Shown here one piece after another: positions 17,097 through 25,133 of a DNA stretch of 37,878 nt; positions within the stretch are counted from its first letter, which is position 1, and the number at the start of each line of letters is the position of its first letter. The notes under the pieces are model-generated. The model was not told the DNA's origin and ran no database searches. It saw only the letters and a program-made list of their open reading frames with translations. Location of the stretch: NCBI GenBank assembly GCA_903930675.1, contig CAIYZJ010000089.1, positions 1-37,878 of the forward strand, in the 5' to 3' direction. Source of the DNA: an uncultured Hyphomicrobiales bacterium (lineage in GTDB: Bacteria; Pseudomonadota; Alphaproteobacteria; Rhizobiales; Beijerinckiaceae). A program made the position numbers and the translations under genes.

Positions 17097-17639
17097 TCAG
17101 CACATTTTGAAACAGCGGATGCGGTCAATGACCGCCAAGAGCAACCGTATATCCTTGCGCGAGAGCGCAATACAGCCTTCGGTCGGTTGATAACCGGCGC
17201 GCGCCAGATGGATAAAAATCGCGCTGCCGTATGAGAGGCGGCGCGGACAATGGTTCCAGTCGGTTTCGATCACAAGATCGTAGAGATGGTCATCCCGCCA
17301 CATCTTTTCATGGCTGGCTGCAAAGGGGAGTGTGACGCGCCGGTTATAGGCAAATGAGTGTGGCGCATCGCACCAGCCGTCAGTGGTTTTGATCCTTTGT
17401 TGCGGCAATCGCCTGCCTGTCGGCCTTAAATTCTGGTCTGGCCGATAGAAAATGCGGATCGGGACGAGACGGGCGCGGGGTGTGGCGCCGTCCCCTTCGC
17501 GCTTGCGCTGCGTCACGCCGGAGCGACCCAGCGCGCAAGGCAGCCGCAGGGTACCGATTGCAATGATCCCGCGGCGCGGATCCGAAGGGCGCGGCCTGAC
17601 AAAGGCGGTGATTGGATTATTTGCCTTGGAGAATGTCAT
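17097..17639 (-). CDS. YkuD-domain (L,D-transpeptidase-like) protein without signal peptide
   Basis: From the ATG at 17639 the protein has 180 residues. The YkuD catalytic signature is visible as His144 in AIFIHLA and Cys156 in TEGCIALS, with KREGDGATP and MWRDDHLYDLVI upstream, as in the COG3786 branch of the family. Periplasmic L,D-transpeptidases crosslink peptidoglycan or attach lipoproteins, but no signal peptide or membrane anchor is visible here; the N-terminus starts almost directly with the domain. The start codon has a weak ribosome site, and a TTG one codon upstream is an alternative. The role therefore remains open. It is divergent from the regulator gene 56 bases away. Confidence 0.8.
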   Translation of the reverse strand: MTFSKANNPITAFVRPRPSDPRRGIIAIGTLRLPCALGRSGVTQRKREGDGATPRARLVPIRIFYRPDQNLRPTGRRLPQQRIKTTDGWCDAPHSFAYNRRVTLPFAASHEKMWRDDHLYDLVIETDWNHCPRRLSYGSAIFIHLARAGYQPTEGCIALSRKDIRLLLAVIDRIRCFKMC

Positions 17640-17695
17640 CAATTACCCATATCGTGTCATCATGCGCTGTGATCAGACCGGAAGGAAGCACTCTC

Positions 17696-18397
17696 ATGCA
17701 AGGGGATCATCACGGGGATCATCATATCGTCATTGTGGATGGTCTGACAGTCCGTCACCAGCATCTTGTCGGAGCGCTCAAAAGTGCCAGAGGCATGAGC
17801 GTGCAATGCCGCCCGTTCGCGGAGCTGATCCAGAACAAGCCTGATCCCGATGAAGATAGTTTGCCGGTCGATGTAATCATTCTGCTGGCCGATGGCGATA
17901 CCCCCCATCAGGAGATGACAGCCAGGATCCGCGCCGCCGGATTGACCCAGCCTTTGCTGGTGTTGAGCGATGAGAATGCGGCAAGCGATGACGAGACCGA
18001 CGAAATGATCCGCCTGCCGGTGCAGATCGGTTTTCTGCTCGGTCGCATCAGAGCGCATATCAGCATGTATGAATCGAGCGAAGACGCGACGCTGACGCTG
18101 GGGGCCTATGTGCTGCGCCCGGGTTTGCGGCAATTGATCCTGCCTGATGGTTCTGCGGTGAGGTTGACGGAAAAAGAAATCAATATTTTGCGTTTTCTGC
18201 ATCGCGCCAACGGGCAGCCGGTATCTCGCGAAGTGCTGCTGGCCGAAATTTGGGGGTATAATTCGCAGATATCCACCCATACTTTGGAAACACATATTTA
18301 CCGCCTGCGGCAAAAGAGTGAGGGTGGAACAGAGAATAGTACGTTGGAAACACCTTTGCTGGTCACCGATGCGGGTGGCTATCGACTGGTGGTTTGA
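17696..18397 (+). CDS. OmpR-type winged-helix regulator with degenerate receiver domain
   Basis: From the ATG at 17696 (GGAAGGAA about 8 bases upstream) the protein has 233 residues. Residues 10-122 resemble a receiver fold, but the phospho-acceptor position after the third strand reads IILLADGD (A65-D66 instead of a lone Asp), the conserved KP reads LP (L107-P108), and only one acidic residue (D15) stands in the first loop. Residues 135-233 form a Trans_reg_C winged helix (LTEKEINILRFL, HTLETHIYRLRQK, DAGGYRLV). It probably works without phosphorylation, as an atypical response regulator. No histidine kinase is adjacent. A cyclic-nucleotide-binding protein follows 19 bases downstream and is likely co-transcribed. 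Confidence 0.85.
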   Translation: MQGDHHGDHHIVIVDGLTVRHQHLVGALKSARGMSVQCRPFAELIQNKPDPDEDSLPVDVIILLADGDTPHQEMTARIRAAGLTQPLLVLSDENAASDDETDEMIRLPVQIGFLLGRIRAHISMYESSEDATLTLGAYVLRPGLRQLILPDGSAVRLTEKEINILRFLHRANGQPVSREVLLAEIWGYNSQISTHTLETHIYRLRQKSEGGTENSTLETPLLVTDAGGYRLVV

Positions 18398-18914: not shown

Positions 18915-19721
18915 TCAGAAGTGGATGCGGATCAGCACCGGCACGTGGTCTGACGGGCGTTCCCAGCCACGGGCCTCGCGGAAAATTTCCAGATCATGCA
19001 AGCCGTCCGACAGATCGGGCGAGACCCAGATATGGTCGAGCCTGCGGCCGCGGTCGGCGGCATCCCAGTCGGCTGCGCGATAGCTCCACCATGTATAGAC
19101 CTTTTCAGGCTCGGGCTTTTGTGCGCGGATGGCATCGACCCAGCCGCCGTCCTCGATCACTTTGGTCATCAGATTGGTTTCAACCGGCGTGTGGGACACG
19201 ATTTTGAGCATTTGCTTGTGGCTCCACACATCGTTTTCAAGCGGAGCCACATTGAGATCACCGACCAGCACGGCCTTTTTGGCAGCGGGTTGTTGGGTCT
19301 GGCCCCATTGACGCATTTCTTCGAGAAAGCCGAGTTTGTGGGCGAATTTGGTGTTTTCTTCGGGATCGGGAATATCTCCGCCCGCCGGAACGTAGAAATT
19401 ATGGATGGTCAGGCCACCGCCTTCATCGCCCAGTTCCGCCGCAATATGGCGGGCATCGGGATTGTCGCAGAAAAAAAGGTTATGGGTGGAGCGGATCGGC
19501 ACACGCGAGACAATGGCGACGCCGTGATAGCCCTTCTGGCCGTTGATGACGACATGCTCGTAACCGAATTTGCGGAAATCCGACAAGGGAAACTGGCCGT
19601 CATGGCACTTGGTTTCCTGCAGACACAAGACATCGGGTTGCTGTTCTTCGAGAAAACGGCCAACCAGCCCGATCCGCAAACGGACAGAATTGATGTTCCA
19701 AGTCGCAATGGTGATGGCCAT
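18915..19721 (-). CDS. xth: Exodeoxyribonuclease III
   Basis: From the ATG at 19721 (AAGGA 10 bases upstream) the protein has 268 residues and starts MAITIATWNINSVRLR. It belongs to the AP-endonuclease/exonuclease III family of base-excision repair: LQETK with the metal-binding glutamate (E36), YHGVAIVSR, VLVGDLNVAPLENDVW with the catalytic Asp-Asn pair, and RLDHIWVS and SDHVPVL at the end. A longer in-frame start at 19760 would translate a parS-like sequence and is not preferred. It is preceded by lolA in the same direction, 93 bases away. Confidence 0.95.
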   Translation of the reverse strand: MAITIATWNINSVRLRIGLVGRFLEEQQPDVLCLQETKCHDGQFPLSDFRKFGYEHVVINGQKGYHGVAIVSRVPIRSTHNLFFCDNPDARHIAAELGDEGGGLTIHNFYVPAGGDIPDPEENTKFAHKLGFLEEMRQWGQTQQPAAKKAVLVGDLNVAPLENDVWSHKQMLKIVSHTPVETNLMTKVIEDGGWVDAIRAQKPEPEKVYTWWSYRAADWDAADRGRRLDHIWVSPDLSDGLHDLEIFREARGWERPSDHVPVLIRIHF

Positions 19722-19743
19722 GGCAGAGCTGTCCTTCGGGCAG

Positions 19744-19759
19744 GGTTTCACGTGCAACA
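19744..19759. other. Degenerate parS-like site upstream of xth
   Basis: On the minus strand the 16-mer reads TGTTGCACGTGAAACC and differs from TGTTNCACGTGAAACA only at the last base. It lies in the non-coding gap between lolA and the chosen xth start, about 10 kb from parS site 3. Weak ParB binding is plausible. Confidence 0.55.
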
Positions 19760-19814
19760 ATCCTTAGCGGACGCGATGGTATCGCCCAAGGGTGCAAACG
19801 GCCTATCCAGAGAC

Positions 19815-20588
19815 TTATTTATAGGTCTGGAAATCAATCACGAACAATTTGGGATCGGGCCGGTCTTTGGTGTTGATCTCGTTGAGCACAACACTGATTT
19901 CGACGCCTTGCGGATCGACGACAATCCATTGTTTCAGCAACAAAGTCGGTTGCTCGAAAAACAAAGTGACTTTGGACGTGCCGGCAAAGGTCGAATGATC
20001 TTCCACCGCCACGATCACCCTGTCCGGATCGACCCGGACACCTGTAACTTTGAGATCGCGGGCAAGATCGATTTGCTCGCGGGTCAGAAATTTCAGCGGG
20101 GTCTGGCCGATCGGATAGATATCCTGCGTCGCCATTTTGGTGTCGCGCACGGCCACCGATGAGCCGTCCGCGATGATCTCGGTCGGCACCGGCGGATCGT
20201 AATCGAACCGCAGCTTGCCCGGTTTCATCACATAGACCTGCCCCTCGCTCTGGCGATTGCCGACAAGCTGGGTGAAATAGGCGCTGAAATAGGGGCTGGC
20301 ATTGAGTGCCGCATTGACGCGTTTGAGCACTTCGGGTGCAGGAGTATTGAGCGGCAGCGGTTTTGGGACTTCCGCTTTGGTGATGGTCACCGAGGAAGGC
20401 GTGGCCGGTACAGGAGACGTTGCGGGTGCAGCGGGGGCCGCTATGGCCGGAGGCGCGGGTTTTGTTGACACAGAAGGTCCGAATTCTGCGGGCCGCAGCG
20501 GCGGACGCGGGGCTGTCTGTGACCAGGCAGGCGCCATCGTGGCCGCAAGGCCGAACAGGGCAACCAAAGCAGTTGCCGCACGCATCAT
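19815..20588 (-). CDS. lolA: LolA-like outer-membrane lipoprotein carrier protein
   Basis: Periplasmic chaperone family that ferries lipoproteins from LolCDE to LolB. With the ATG at 20588 the protein has 257 residues: a signal peptide (MMRAATALVALFGLAA, cleavage near APAWS-Q), a Pro/Ala-rich linker of about 50 residues, then the LolA fold (YFSAYFTQLVGNRQSEGQVYV, KPGKLRFDYDPP, PIGQTPLKFL). The linker is longer than in E. coli LolA. In-frame GTG codons at 20618 and 20612 would overlap the ftsK end and give a longer n-region; the start remains uncertain. It follows ftsK, an arrangement common in alphaproteobacteria. Confidence 0.88.
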   Translation of the reverse strand: MMRAATALVALFGLAATMAPAWSQTAPRPPLRPAEFGPSVSTKPAPPAIAAPAAPATSPVPATPSSVTITKAEVPKPLPLNTPAPEVLKRVNAALNASPYFSAYFTQLVGNRQSEGQVYVMKPGKLRFDYDPPVPTEIIADGSSVAVRDTKMATQDIYPIGQTPLKFLTREQIDLARDLKVTGVRVDPDRVIVAVEDHSTFAGTSKVTLFFEQPTLLLKQWIVVDPQGVEISVVLNEINTKDRPDPKLFVIDFQTYK

Positions 20589-20601
20589 GCTCCGGGTCCG
20601 G

Positions 20602-23082
20602 TCAGTCGTCACTGTCACGATGCCCCGATTCAAGCAGAATCTCCCGTTTGCCCGCATGGTTGGGGGCACCGACAATGCCCTCGTTTTCCATCCGCTCGAT
20701 CAGCGAGGCGGCGCGGTTATAGCCGATCTGCAAACGGCGCTGGATATAGGATGTCGAGGCTTTGCGGTCCCGCAACACAATGGCGACCGCCTGATCATAG
20801 AGATCGGTTCCCGCGCTGCCGAATGATCCCTGATCGAACACCGCTTGGTCCTGTTCGCCCGAGCCGTCATCCTCGGTAACGGTTTCGAGATATTGCGGCT
20901 GGCCCTGCGATTTCAGATGCGCGACCACGCGTTCGACTTCGGCATCCGAGACAAAGGGTCCGTGCACGCGGCTGATCCGCCCGCCGCCCATCATATACAG
21001 CATGTCACCCTGACCGAGCAGCTGTTCGGCGCCCTGCTCGCCCAGAATGGTGCGGCTGTCGATTTTCGATGTGACCTGAAACGAGATACGGGTCGGGAAA
21101 TTGGCCTTGATCGTGCCGGTGATGACATCGACCGAGGGGCGTTGCGTCGCCAGAATCACATGGATGCCTGCCGCACGCGCCATTTGCGCCAGCCGCTGCA
21201 CTGCGCCTTCGATGTCCTTGCCCGCCACCATCATCAGATCGGCCATTTCGTCGACAACGATCACGATATAGGGCAGCGCATCAAGCGACATGGCCTCGGT
21301 TTCATAGACGGCTTGTCCGGTCTCACGGTCAAAGCCGGTTTGCACCGTGCGGCTGATTTCCTCGCCCTTGGCGCGGGCTTCGGCGACACGCGCGTTGAAG
21401 CCGTCGATGTTGCGCACGCCGAGCTTCGACATTTTCTTGTAGCGTTCCTCCATCTCGCGCACCGCCCATTTGAGCGCGAGAATGGCCTTTTTCGGATCGG
21501 TCACCACGGGGGTCAGCAGATGCGGAATGCCGTCATAGACCGACAGTTCCAGCATTTTCGGATCGACCATGATCAACCGGCATTCTTCCGGCTTCAGGCG
21601 GTAGAGCAGCGACAGGATCATGGTATTGATCGCCACCGATTTGCCCGAACCGGTAGTGCCCGCCACCAACAGATGCGGCATGCGGGTCAATTCGGCAATC
21701 ACCGGATCGCCGCCGATGGTTTTGCCCAGACACAGCGCCAGTTTCATCTCGGTATTGGCAAAGGCCTCGCTGGCCAGCATTTCGCGCAAAAACACCGTTT
21801 CGCGCCGCTGGTTGGGCAATTCGATGCCGATGGCATTGCGACCCGGGACCACAGCGACACGTGCCGAAATCGCGCTCATCGAGCGGGCAATGTCATCGGC
21901 CAAACCAACCACGCGGGAGGATTTGATGCCCGGTGCGGGTTCAAGTTCGTAAAGGGTGACAACAGGGCCGGGGCGGACATTGACGATTTCGCCGCGCACG
22001 CCGAAATCATCCAGCACGCCTTCGAGCAAACGGGCATTCTGTTCCAGTGCTTCTGGCGGAACCAGCGGGCCGACCTGCTTTTTGGGTTCGGCCAGCAGCG
22101 ACAGCGAGGGATGCGCATAGCCGTCATCATCGGTTTCAAACAGCTGTGCCGATGATTTGCCACTCGTTCGTGCCCGTTTTGGTTTGGCAACGGCAACAGG
22201 CTCGTCATCGGCTTCGGGAAATTCAAAATGCTTCTGGCGGGCGGTCTGGATCACCGGCGGCAGAGAGGTCTCGCCGCTATGCCCATCAAAACCCGGTTCG
22301 ATCCGGCCATGCTGGACGCGGTCATAGACCATGTCATTCTCGGCTTTGGGGCGAAACAGCCGCGCAAACCACGCTTTCAGGCTCAAGAACCAGTGAATGA
22401 CCGCCCCGAAGGAGGCGGAGGAGAAAAACGGTTCCGGTTCGCTCTCGTCCTCTTTCAGGTCATCCAGCATGATCTGGCGTTTTTGTGCGGCCTCATGCTG
22501 GCTTTTCTCGTAATCCCCCAGCCCGATCCCCGCCACAAGCAGCAAGGACAGCAATGCGATCAGACCGGATGTGAAACCGACCACCGGTTTTGCCGGCAAT
22601 TCGAGCGGGATCAAAGGGCTCAGCCAGTCCAGAATCACATCGCCGATAAATCCGCCTAGTCCTGTCGGCAAAGGCCAACGGCCGGTGGTCGGGAAAACCG
22701 CTGCCATGGCGGACAGGCTCACGATACCGAGCACCAACAGCAACAAGCGGGATTTGGGCCGCAAGACCTCGCCGCTCGCCATCATTTTCAGGCTGGCATA
22801 GCCGACCGGAATCAGGATGGCACCGGCGCTCAGGCCGAACAGCTGGATCAGCAAATCGGCGGTAATCGCCCCCGGCCAGCCCAGAAAATTGCGCACGGGC
22901 GCACTGGTGGCGTGATTGAGGCTCGGATCGGTCACCGACCAGGTCAACAAAGCGGTGGCGCCTGCCGCGGTCAGCAGCAGCAGACACAGCCCGGTGATCT
23001 CGACCGCCCGACGGGCCACAAAGTCCCGGATATGGTCGATAAACCGGTCCTGATTGGCCTCTCTCGATCTGATCATGCGCAT
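20602..23082 (-). CDS. ftsK: DNA translocase FtsK
   Basis: Septum-located DNA pump that clears and aligns chromosome ends at division. The ATG at 23082 follows AGGG at a good distance and gives 826 residues. Four hydrophobic helices are seen (about residues 30-50, 72-100, 113-131 and 168-190), then an acidic linker (about 200-340), the motor domain with Walker A GTTGSGKS (about 475-482), Walker B IVIVVDEMADLMM, and LATQRPSVDVITG. A C-terminal gamma winged helix follows (STSYIQRRLQIGYNRAASLIERMENEGIVG), which reads KOPS sites. The linker is short compared with E. coli. A CtrA-type box is centred about 75 bases upstream. Confidence 0.96.
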   Translation of the reverse strand: MRMIRSREANQDRFIDHIRDFVARRAVEITGLCLLLLTAAGATALLTWSVTDPSLNHATSAPVRNFLGWPGAITADLLIQLFGLSAGAILIPVGYASLKMMASGEVLRPKSRLLLLVLGIVSLSAMAAVFPTTGRWPLPTGLGGFIGDVILDWLSPLIPLELPAKPVVGFTSGLIALLSLLLVAGIGLGDYEKSQHEAAQKRQIMLDDLKEDESEPEPFFSSASFGAVIHWFLSLKAWFARLFRPKAENDMVYDRVQHGRIEPGFDGHSGETSLPPVIQTARQKHFEFPEADDEPVAVAKPKRARTSGKSSAQLFETDDDGYAHPSLSLLAEPKKQVGPLVPPEALEQNARLLEGVLDDFGVRGEIVNVRPGPVVTLYELEPAPGIKSSRVVGLADDIARSMSAISARVAVVPGRNAIGIELPNQRRETVFLREMLASEAFANTEMKLALCLGKTIGGDPVIAELTRMPHLLVAGTTGSGKSVAINTMILSLLYRLKPEECRLIMVDPKMLELSVYDGIPHLLTPVVTDPKKAILALKWAVREMEERYKKMSKLGVRNIDGFNARVAEARAKGEEISRTVQTGFDRETGQAVYETEAMSLDALPYIVIVVDEMADLMMVAGKDIEGAVQRLAQMARAAGIHVILATQRPSVDVITGTIKANFPTRISFQVTSKIDSRTILGEQGAEQLLGQGDMLYMMGGGRISRVHGPFVSDAEVERVVAHLKSQGQPQYLETVTEDDGSGEQDQAVFDQGSFGSAGTDLYDQAVAIVLRDRKASTSYIQRRLQIGYNRAASLIERMENEGIVGAPNHAGKREILLESGHRDSDD

Positions 23083-23148
23083 CAAGAGCCCTGATGGAAA
23101 AAGGCCGAAACTATTCCGGCCGGACGGTTTGATCCTAGCCGCGGCAAA

Positions 23149-23164
23149 GTTAAAATCTTGTTAA
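23149..23164 (-). promoter_or_regulatory. CtrA-type binding box upstream of ftsK
   Basis: On the minus strand the sequence TTAACAAGATTTTAAC fits the full CtrA consensus TTAA-N7-TTAAC without mismatch. It lies 67 bases before the ftsK start, a normal promoter position. CtrA is the cell-cycle master regulator of many alphaproteobacteria; regulation of this gene is inferred from the motif. Confidence 0.65.
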
Positions 23165-23186
23165 GGAATAGACTGCACTTGCGGAC

Positions 23187-23214
23187 AAAAAAAGGCGGCT
23201 GAAACAGCCGCCTT
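23187..23214 (-). terminator. Rho-independent terminator of glnK-amtB
   Basis: A perfect 10-bp stem, AAGGCGGCTG/CAGCCGCCTT (23192-23214), with a 3-base loop is followed on the minus strand by seven T residues (23187-23193, overlapping the stem by two). It lies about 80 bases beyond the amtB stop and about 105 bases before ftsK, separating the two minus-strand units. Confidence 0.93.
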
Positions 23215-23292
23215 GGAGTGAGGGGTATTTGGTATTCAGGGAGAGGAAGGAACGGGCCGTGGTCCGTTCCGCTTGTTGATCGCCAACAGGGA

Positions 23293-24765
23293 TCAATAGT
23301 TGTAGGCACGTTCGTCATGCTCGGTGATGTCGAGGCCTTCGCGCTCGGCTTCGGGCGACACACGCAGGCCAACCAGCATATCGGTGATCTTGTAGAGGAT
23401 CGCCGAACCGACGCCCGACCAGACGAGGGTCAGAGCAACCGCTTTCAACTGGGCCAGCATCACGGTAGCCATGTCGTAATCGGCAACCGAGAGTTCGCCC
23501 GGCTTCATCGCATAGTCGGCAATACCGACGCCGCCCAGAGCGGGATTGACCAGAATACCGGTGGCGAGTGCTCCGATGATGCCGCCGACGCAGTGGACGC
23601 CGAACACATCGAGTGAGTCGTCATATTTGAGGGTATTCTTGACGGTCGAGACGAAGAAGTAGCAGACCGGGCTGACCAGAAGGCCGAGAACGATCGCACC
23701 CATCGGGCCAGCGAAACCCGACGCCGGTGTGACAGCCACAAGACCGGCTACCGCACCCGAGACCATGCCGAGCAAAGTCGGCTTGCCTTTGGCCATCCAT
23801 TCGGTGAACAGCCATGACAGGGTGGCTGCAGCAGTCGCTACGAAGGTGTTGACCATCGCCAGAACCGCACCGCCGCCTGCTTCGAGGTTGGAGCCGGCAT
23901 TGAAGCCGAACCAGCCGACCCAGAGCAGGGACGCGCCGACCATGGTCATGGTCAGGGAGTGGGGAGCCATCAGCTCTCTGCCATAACCGACGCGCTTGCC
24001 GATCATGATTGCGCCCACCAGACCGGCAATACCGGCATTGATGTGGACCACGGTCCCACCTGCGAAGTCGAGCGCACCCCACTGGAAGGCGAGACCGGCA
24101 TCGGCCATCACGGCATCCAGCTTGGTCTGGGCAGCAGCCTTGGCGGCATCATCGGTCGCAGCAGCCAGCAACTTTGCAGCATCGGCAATCGCATCCGGAC
24201 CGGCCCAATACCAGACCATGTGGGCAATCGGGAAGTAGATGAAGGTCACCCACAGGGTCACGAACACCAGCACGGCCGAAAAACGGATCCGCTCGGCAAA
24301 GGCACCGACGATCAGCGCAGGCGTGATGCAGGCAAAGGTCATCTGGAAGACGACATAGACCAACTCGGGAATGACAACGCCGTTGGAGAAGGTGGCGACA
24401 ACCGAGTCAACGGTGACACCCTTCAGGAACAGCTTGTCGAGACCGCCGACATAATCGCCGATCGCGCTCGGCGTGAAGGCCAGAGAATAGCCGAACACCA
24501 CCCAGAGAATGGCGACCAGAGCCACAATCGCAAACACCTGACTCAACACCGACAACATGTTTTTGGTGCGCACGAGGCCACCGTAAAACAGGGCCAGACC
24601 CGGAATGGTCATCAACAGAACCAGCACGGTGGAAATCAGCATCCACGCCGTGTCACCCTTGTTGGGAACCGGAGCAGCGGGCGCATCAGCAGCAAGAACG
24701 GCAACGCTGGTCAGCGCTGTGCCCAGACCGGCGAGCCCGAGAGAGAGCATAGAACGAAGTTTCAT
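23293..24765 (-). CDS. amtB: Ammonium transporter AmtB
   Basis: From the ATG at 24765 (AAGGA 8 bases upstream) the protein has 490 residues. A signal-like N-terminus (MKLRSMLSLGLAGLGTAL) precedes about eleven hydrophobic segments. Family landmarks are GDTAWMLISTVLVLLMTIPGLALFYGGLVR, DFAGGTVVHINAG, WVGWFGFNAGS, and DVFGVHCVGG with one of the twin pore histidines. An insertion rich in Ala/Asp around KLLAAATDDAAKAAAQTK lies between helices and is unusual in length. It imports ammonium and is gated by the PII protein encoded upstream, 29 bases away. Confidence 0.96.
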   Translation of the reverse strand: MKLRSMLSLGLAGLGTALTSVAVLAADAPAAPVPNKGDTAWMLISTVLVLLMTIPGLALFYGGLVRTKNMLSVLSQVFAIVALVAILWVVFGYSLAFTPSAIGDYVGGLDKLFLKGVTVDSVVATFSNGVVIPELVYVVFQMTFACITPALIVGAFAERIRFSAVLVFVTLWVTFIYFPIAHMVWYWAGPDAIADAAKLLAAATDDAAKAAAQTKLDAVMADAGLAFQWGALDFAGGTVVHINAGIAGLVGAIMIGKRVGYGRELMAPHSLTMTMVGASLLWVGWFGFNAGSNLEAGGGAVLAMVNTFVATAAATLSWLFTEWMAKGKPTLLGMVSGAVAGLVAVTPASGFAGPMGAIVLGLLVSPVCYFFVSTVKNTLKYDDSLDVFGVHCVGGIIGALATGILVNPALGGVGIADYAMKPGELSVADYDMATVMLAQLKAVALTLVWSGVGSAILYKITDMLVGLRVSPEAEREGLDITEHDERAYNY

Positions 24766-24794
24766 AGGAAAATTCCTTGTCAACAGAGGGCCGC

Positions 24795-25133
24795 TCAAAG
24801 CGCGTCCTGATCGCGTTCGCCGGTGCGAATGCGAACGGCTTGCTCGATGCTTGAAACAAAAATCTTGCCGTCGCCGATTTGTCCGGTTTTGGCCGCTTCG
24901 GAGATCGCATCAATCACTTGCGGAACCAGATCGGAGTTGATCGCCACTTCGATTTTCAGTTTGGGCAGAAAACTGACGGCATATTCGGCACCACGATAGA
25001 TTTCGGTGTGGCCTTTCTGGCGGCCATATCCTTTGACTTCAGTGACAGTAAGGCCGTGCACGCCGATTGTGGTCAGCGCATCGCGGACCTCCTCGAGCTT
25101 GAACGGCTTGATGATCGCCATAACGATTTTCAT
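24795..25133 (-). CDS. glnK: Nitrogen regulatory PII protein GlnK
   Basis: From the ATG at 25133 (GAGGAA upstream) the protein has the canonical 112 residues, MKIVMAIIKPFKLEEVRDAL. The T-loop holds Tyr51 (GHTEIYRGAEY), the uridylylation site, and the B-loop TGQIGDGKIFV binds ATP/ADP. PII proteins sense 2-oxoglutarate and energy state and, as GlnK, plug AmtB. Pairing with amtB in one operon supports GlnK rather than GlnB. A sigma-54-like promoter lies 65 bases upstream. Confidence 0.96.
   Translation of the reverse strand: MKIVMAIIKPFKLEEVRDALTTIGVHGLTVTEVKGYGRQKGHTEIYRGAEYAVSFLPKLKIEVAINSDLVPQVIDAISEAAKTGQIGDGKIFVSSIEQAVRIRTGERDQDAL

Follow-up and report, generated by a model that had tools for sequence, protein, structure and literature searches.

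A CtrA-type box at the ftsK promoter of an uncultured Hyphomicrobiales bacterium is kept at most ftsK loci of the order

The ftsK locus and its promoter

The window analyzed in this study, the whole stretch of 37,878 bases, carries on its minus strand an ftsK gene (20602..23085, -) that encodes 827 amino acids when read from a TTG at 23085, with the ATG at 23082 as the likelier start. Domain searches found the 4TM, alpha, motor, and gamma domains in its product (PF13491, PF17854, PF01580, and PF09397), and the gene is a true ftsK. Downstream lies a lolA-like gene (19815..20675, -) that is probably read together with ftsK; its match to TIGR00547 reaches 45.6 bits, under the cut-off of 112 bits. 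Both genes are followed by a member of the endonuclease/exonuclease/phosphatase family (18915-19760, -; PF03372). The upstream neighbor is amtB (23293..24798, -; TIGR00836 above cut-off), which adjoins ftsK in many relatives. An intrinsic-terminator-like hairpin with a 10-pair stem and a T run (23192..23214, -) lies 3′ of amtB, directly upstream of the ftsK promoter. Farther along, the plus strand encodes an OmpR-type winged-helix protein (17612-18397, +) whose N-terminal half has no Pfam receiver match, which suggests an atypical or orphan response regulator.

Between this hairpin and ftsK, the sequence TTAACAAGATTTTAAC (23149-23164, -) matches the CtrA-type box TTAA-N7-TTAAC without mismatch, exactly 7 nt separating the two half-sites; the 16-mer was checked in the window and has the position and strand given in a preliminary description of this DNA. 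It is the only exact match in the window, for which matches averaged 0.02 over 100 shuffles that preserved dinucleotides, with any match in just one of them. The box had been placed 67 bases before ftsK; it is indeed upstream, but the measured distance is 66 nt to the likelier ATG and 63 nt to the first possible start, the TTG. The surroundings had also been described as GC-rich. The GC content is 0.58 for the window and 0.50 for the stretch 23080-23230, so the ftsK spacer is only mildly AT-richer than the window.

A -10-like hexamer, TAGGAT (23132..23137, -), begins 27 nt downstream of the T that opens the box (locus L095). Transcription is predicted to start about 12 nt past the beginning of this hexamer (23125..23126, -), as judged from this geometry and from the example of Caulobacter ctrA P2 (PMC4287350). 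The predicted ftsK leader opens with a hairpin, GGCCGGAATAGTTTCGGCC (23121-23098, -), followed by five T, and a second hairpin covers the ribosome-binding stretch. Both leader hairpins also occur in three congener loci (L015, L097, and L098), with z values of just -0.8 to -2.2.

GANTC sites were sought in the promoter stretch with GcrA/CcrM co-control in mind, and none is present in 23085-23300; such co-control was therefore rejected as a reading. Across the window this motif is depleted (59 sites vs. 192 expected from dinucleotide shuffles and 141 from base shuffles), as might be expected given a CcrM-type methylase, whose RAMA domain was found in the genome.

Conservation of the box across the order

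The order set comprised 103 loci with a resolved FtsK N-terminus and 20 further order genomes, 123 ftsK loci altogether. Six loci (L082, L085, L087, L090, L118, and L123) were dropped before counting for an unresolved FtsK N-terminus, and so was the duplicate L096; two genomes without a CtrA match (G034 and G051) had broken ftsK matches and were left out. Three loci (L053, L075, and L083) are titled just Alphaproteobacteria, and the kinship of G-numbered loci is as labeled in the source collection. Because the set includes close relatives, the counts are of loci and not of independent events.

The box is retained in all four congeners, identical in three and with a different N7 interior in G004; its loss in sister species, named in the preliminary description as one of two results that would overturn the proposal, was thus not seen. 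The alignment of ftsK promoters in relatives that the same description had suggested showed that most order-set loci retain it: an exact box lies within 250 nt of ftsK in 81 of the 123 loci and at -1250 to -1450 in 19, a one-mismatch box is present in 13, and 10 have none. For the 103-locus set alone, 76 loci contain an exact box no more than 250 nt upstream, which in 63 of these 76 forms the palindrome GTTAA-N7-TTAAC. The remainder of the same 103 loci (873,351 bases) yielded 15 matches as background. This background includes 13 palindromes situated about 1.3 kb upstream of ftsK, found among the 27 loci without a near box.

Conservation is specific to the spacing. Other spacings from 0 to 15 reach at most four of the 103 loci, and spacings from N2 to N13 other than N7 reach at most five exact matches in the 123. 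When up to one mismatch is allowed, N7 is found near ftsK in 94 of the 123 loci and the next best spacing in 16. The order-set boxes contain 77 different N7 interiors, which indicates that the core is retained while the filler turns over.

At least five of the 10 box-less order loci (L112, L116, L200, L201, and L203) belong to genomes with a CtrA match. Two order genomes without a CtrA match, G043 and G044, have no exact box, and the same is true of some CtrA-bearing genomes. The G043 genome (locus L199) is scored as 100% complete and has neither a CtrA match (E ≤ 1e-60) nor an ftsK box, reflecting either a loss or an assembly gap.

Loci with the box about 1.3 kb from ftsK were read closely in 15 cases: eight of the 13 far-palindrome loci and seven picked by handle, or, by origin, 14 of the 19 far-box loci of the order set plus G067 from the class set described below. 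All 15 have an open frame of 398-429 amino acids between box and ftsK, in every case a class I/II aminotransferase (PF00155). The -10-like hexamer at 26/27 nt is retained in 12 of the 15 and absent in L187, L197, and L204.

Two controls were available. For the class outside the order, 60 loci were fetched, 10 were dropped for an unresolved N-terminus, and 50 were counted; FtsK was not matched in eight of the 76 class genomes (E ≤ 1e-100), and the 60 loci represent part of the matching genomes. A near exact box was identified in none of the 50 loci. The only exact box (G067) is at -1327, and a one-mismatch box occurs in five of the 50, the same count as for an N8 control. With an exact box in just one class locus, the joint distribution of CtrA and box in the class is uninformative as evidence. 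The second control consisted of second FtsK copies in seven genomes, which match the FtsK of the window in the motor region and not in the N-terminus and whose starts were taken as stop-to-stop frames. Neither an exact nor a one-mismatch box was found near the frame start of any of the seven. Of the seven copies from these genomes that do match in the N-terminus, six have an exact box and the one in G017 does not.

Promoter geometry and the extended element

In 80 of the 100 loci of the final set, the distance from the first T of the box to the beginning of TANNNT is 26 or 27 nt, compared with a mean of 1.9 and a maximum of 7 per 100 loci in mononucleotide shuffles; the corresponding count is 73 among 88 aligned loci, an alignment that leaves out L015. 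This spacing places the box near -39, as reported for ctrA P2 (PMC4287350). In the window, the 5′ end of the box would lie 38-39 nt upstream of the predicted start, comparable to the -35 to -39 of a full site with its -10 at a fixed distance, and the -10 hexamer is not covered by the box.

Alignment of the 88 loci gave an order-wide element (c)ATGG-TTAA-N7-TTAACC, followed by a T-A-rich hexamer. GG precedes the core in 74 of 100 loci and C trails it in 82 of 100. The window has CC before the core and T after it, and its copy ranks 86th of 88 when scored with a weight matrix derived from the remaining loci (13.3 vs. a median of 28.8). Ranks 84-86 are taken by the three aligned species that share the identical box, and G004 comes last, at 88 of 88. 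The box had been called perfect, a word that suits the nine core bases and, given this low rank, not the flanks. Judged by this score and by the missing GG and C, binding may be weak; this genus keeps the core and not the flanks, so that at the sequence level the site is conserved but not optimal.

Occurrence of the core and the extended palindrome elsewhere

The genome contains 14 matches to the core (13 places) vs. 25 for a mirrored control. We rejected genome-wide enrichment as evidence in this genome; since the core is not enriched, support comes from position and conservation and not from motif count. Counted by eye, the core exceeds its mirror in 41 of 60 genomes and does not in the other 19. 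Of the 12 further places where the genome has a box, three have TANNNT at 26/27 nt (0.5 on average in shuffles, with three attained in 1.65% of 2000) and six have it at 26-28 nt (0.8 on average, with six attained in none of 2000). One of these six, L001, is a very AT-rich stretch. The places with a -10-like hexamer at 26-28 nt include L006, L008, L011, L012, and L013, which are candidate CtrA targets; candidate sites precede genes for an M23 peptidase (L011), a DUF2336 protein (L013), and a TPR protein (L008). The boxes at L002 and L003 (G000:C16), separated by 288 nt, have similar flanks and no -10-like hexamer and lie in an apparent repeated stretch.

The extended palindrome is rare, with 67 rows in 60 genomes compared with three for the mirrored control. 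As a signature unique to ftsK it was rejected, since by eye about 20 of the 67 rows are at ftsK and the others elsewhere.

The CtrA relay in the genome and its relatives

The nearest named relatives of this genome are MAGs labeled Hyphomicrobiales, Rhizobiales, or Beijerinckiaceae. The genome encodes a CtrA with 81% identity to a Caulobacter query and 425 bits against NF045991 (NCBIfam cut-off 350), with a C-terminal DNA-binding region almost unchanged relative to that query; the query, an approximate Caulobacter CtrA sequence, also underlies the counts of CtrA matches. The gene chpT adjoins ctrA (NF046018 above cut-off). A cckA orthologue was detected at 826 bits, under the cut-off of 1000 bits, a shortfall that probably arises from truncation of its frame at the start of the contig. 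Searching the genome for ctrA and cckA, as had been proposed, thus recovered both; absence of ctrA, the other result that would have overturned the proposal, was not seen, and the suggestion of a CtrA-containing lineage is supported. The cognate regulator and CckA-ChpT relay that belong with a full CtrA site are therefore present, with CckA under its cut-off as above. Matches to the SciP family (DUF1153), the GcrA family, and RAMA (CcrM-type) are co-present; those to DUF1153 number three (G000 C10, C253, and C235; L179-L181), the last being partial, at a contig start. With a threshold of E ≤ 1e-60, a CtrA match was obtained for 56 of the 60 genomes sampled as relatives and for 50 of the 76 sampled from the class.

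Interpretation and alternatives

We consider it highly likely, from the sequence comparisons above, that the element is a promoter from which CtrA activates ftsK and probably also the lolA-like gene downstream. The element is very probably a real CtrA switch kept in most of the order. That CtrA is the binding protein, that it activates and does not repress, and that it times ftsK within the cell cycle are what we infer. In the proposed mechanism, CckA and ChpT would feed the phosphorylation of CtrA, and a CtrA~P dimer would bind both TTAA half-sites at about -39 to -24, where it would replace the -35 hexamer. Bound CtrA~P would then bring in RNA polymerase at TAGGAT, the -10 hexamer, and ftsK would be made while CtrA~P is high, before division.

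An unlikely alternative is that CtrA binds here but mainly represses, or times ftsK together with a second regulator on a CbrA-dependent path, in which case ftsK would rise when CtrA falls. There is precedent in S. meliloti, in which CtrA represses minCD (PMC4433202) and ftsK2 is raised in a cbrA mutant by a route that the authors did not ascribe mainly to CtrA (PMC11500502). The position of the box, 5′ of the predicted start at the distance of an activator and with the -10 left free, argues against repression (PMC4287350), as does the finding that the sole sigma70-consensus match near the ftsK start falls on the opposite strand.

It is still less probable that the site belongs to a regulator other than CtrA that recognizes the GTTAA-N7-TTAAC palindrome. 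The near-palindromic flanks of the order-wide ftsK element and the rarity of the extended palindrome, of which a substantial share is at ftsK, would suit such a protein, and, elsewhere in this genome, 11 of 12 places with a box lack the leading G. Against it, the arm ATGGTTAA is the reverse complement of TTAACCAT, a published CtrA motif (PMC11527210), and other box places in the genome have a similar distance from box to -10. A chance match in an AT-richer spacer has a negligible probability: the missing genome-wide enrichment in this genome would agree with it, but the exact spacing conserved around variable filler, the box ahead of the aminotransferase, and the fixed -10 speak against it and refute chance for the order set as a whole.

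We slightly favor the view that direct CtrA control of ftsK is ancestral and near-universal in Hyphomicrobiales, with the box keeping its position at the head of the transcript as the aminotransferase gene came or went. Fixation near the base of the order is suggested by the lack of a near exact box in the 50 class loci outside it.

FtsK couples chromosome clearing to septum closure, and Hyphomicrobiales include rhizobia, agrobacteria, and brucellae. If direct CtrA control holds order-wide, a core division step would be wired straight to the master regulator of the cell cycle.

Comparison with known systems

In Caulobacter, the ftsK promoter is listed as having both a CtrA motif and ChIP-seq enrichment of CtrA; the full motifs of activated promoters are near -35, with the ctrA P2 box at -39 (PMC4287350). 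The element described here resembles these "CtrA full" promoters in core, spacing, target gene, and position relative to the start, which is predicted in our case. It differs in the longer consensus found across the order, (c)ATGG-TTAA-N7-TTAACC as against their TTAA-N7-TTAA; the Caulobacter ftsK site itself may be a full or a half site. Within the class set, CtrA is most similar to that of Caulobacter in genome G111 (87%), and the ftsK box there is no more than a one-mismatch form, at -69, so that a common origin with the Caulobacter ftsK site does not follow.

For S. meliloti, the Fts complex has been stated to lie outside CtrA control (PMC4433202, whose main text does not contain the word ftsK), and ftsK2 has been called an indirect CtrA target, with expression in cbrA suppressor strains that did not track CtrA (PMC11500502). 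That ftsK2 may or may not be the orthologue of the ftsK in the window; the printed ftsK2 primer letters had no match within three mismatches in Sinorhizobium/Ensifer loci. The conserved ftsK box sits awkwardly with the published claim that CtrA spares division genes in this species. If the control is ancestral, the conclusion that CtrA spares the Fts complex and acts via Min would miss a conserved direct target, and Sinorhizobium would differ less from Caulobacter than has been stated.

The main text of PMC2877005 does not mention ftsK, and the relevant passages of PMC11527210 and PMC5900048 report no ftsK box. A description of order-wide conservation of the ftsK promoter was not found in the literature searched, which mostly did not extend to subscription papers. 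A CtrA motif has been predicted upstream of S. meliloti ftsK (PMC3616915), the same kind of predicted site at the same gene in the same order. That prediction came from a matrix scan of one genome; the present analysis goes beyond it with data on conservation and -10 spacing, the tracking of gene order, and a control on paralogues. CtrA at ftsK is therefore known as a report in Caulobacter and a prediction in Sinorhizobium, and what is new here is the depth of conservation, the promoter geometry, and the conflict with the Sinorhizobium conclusion.
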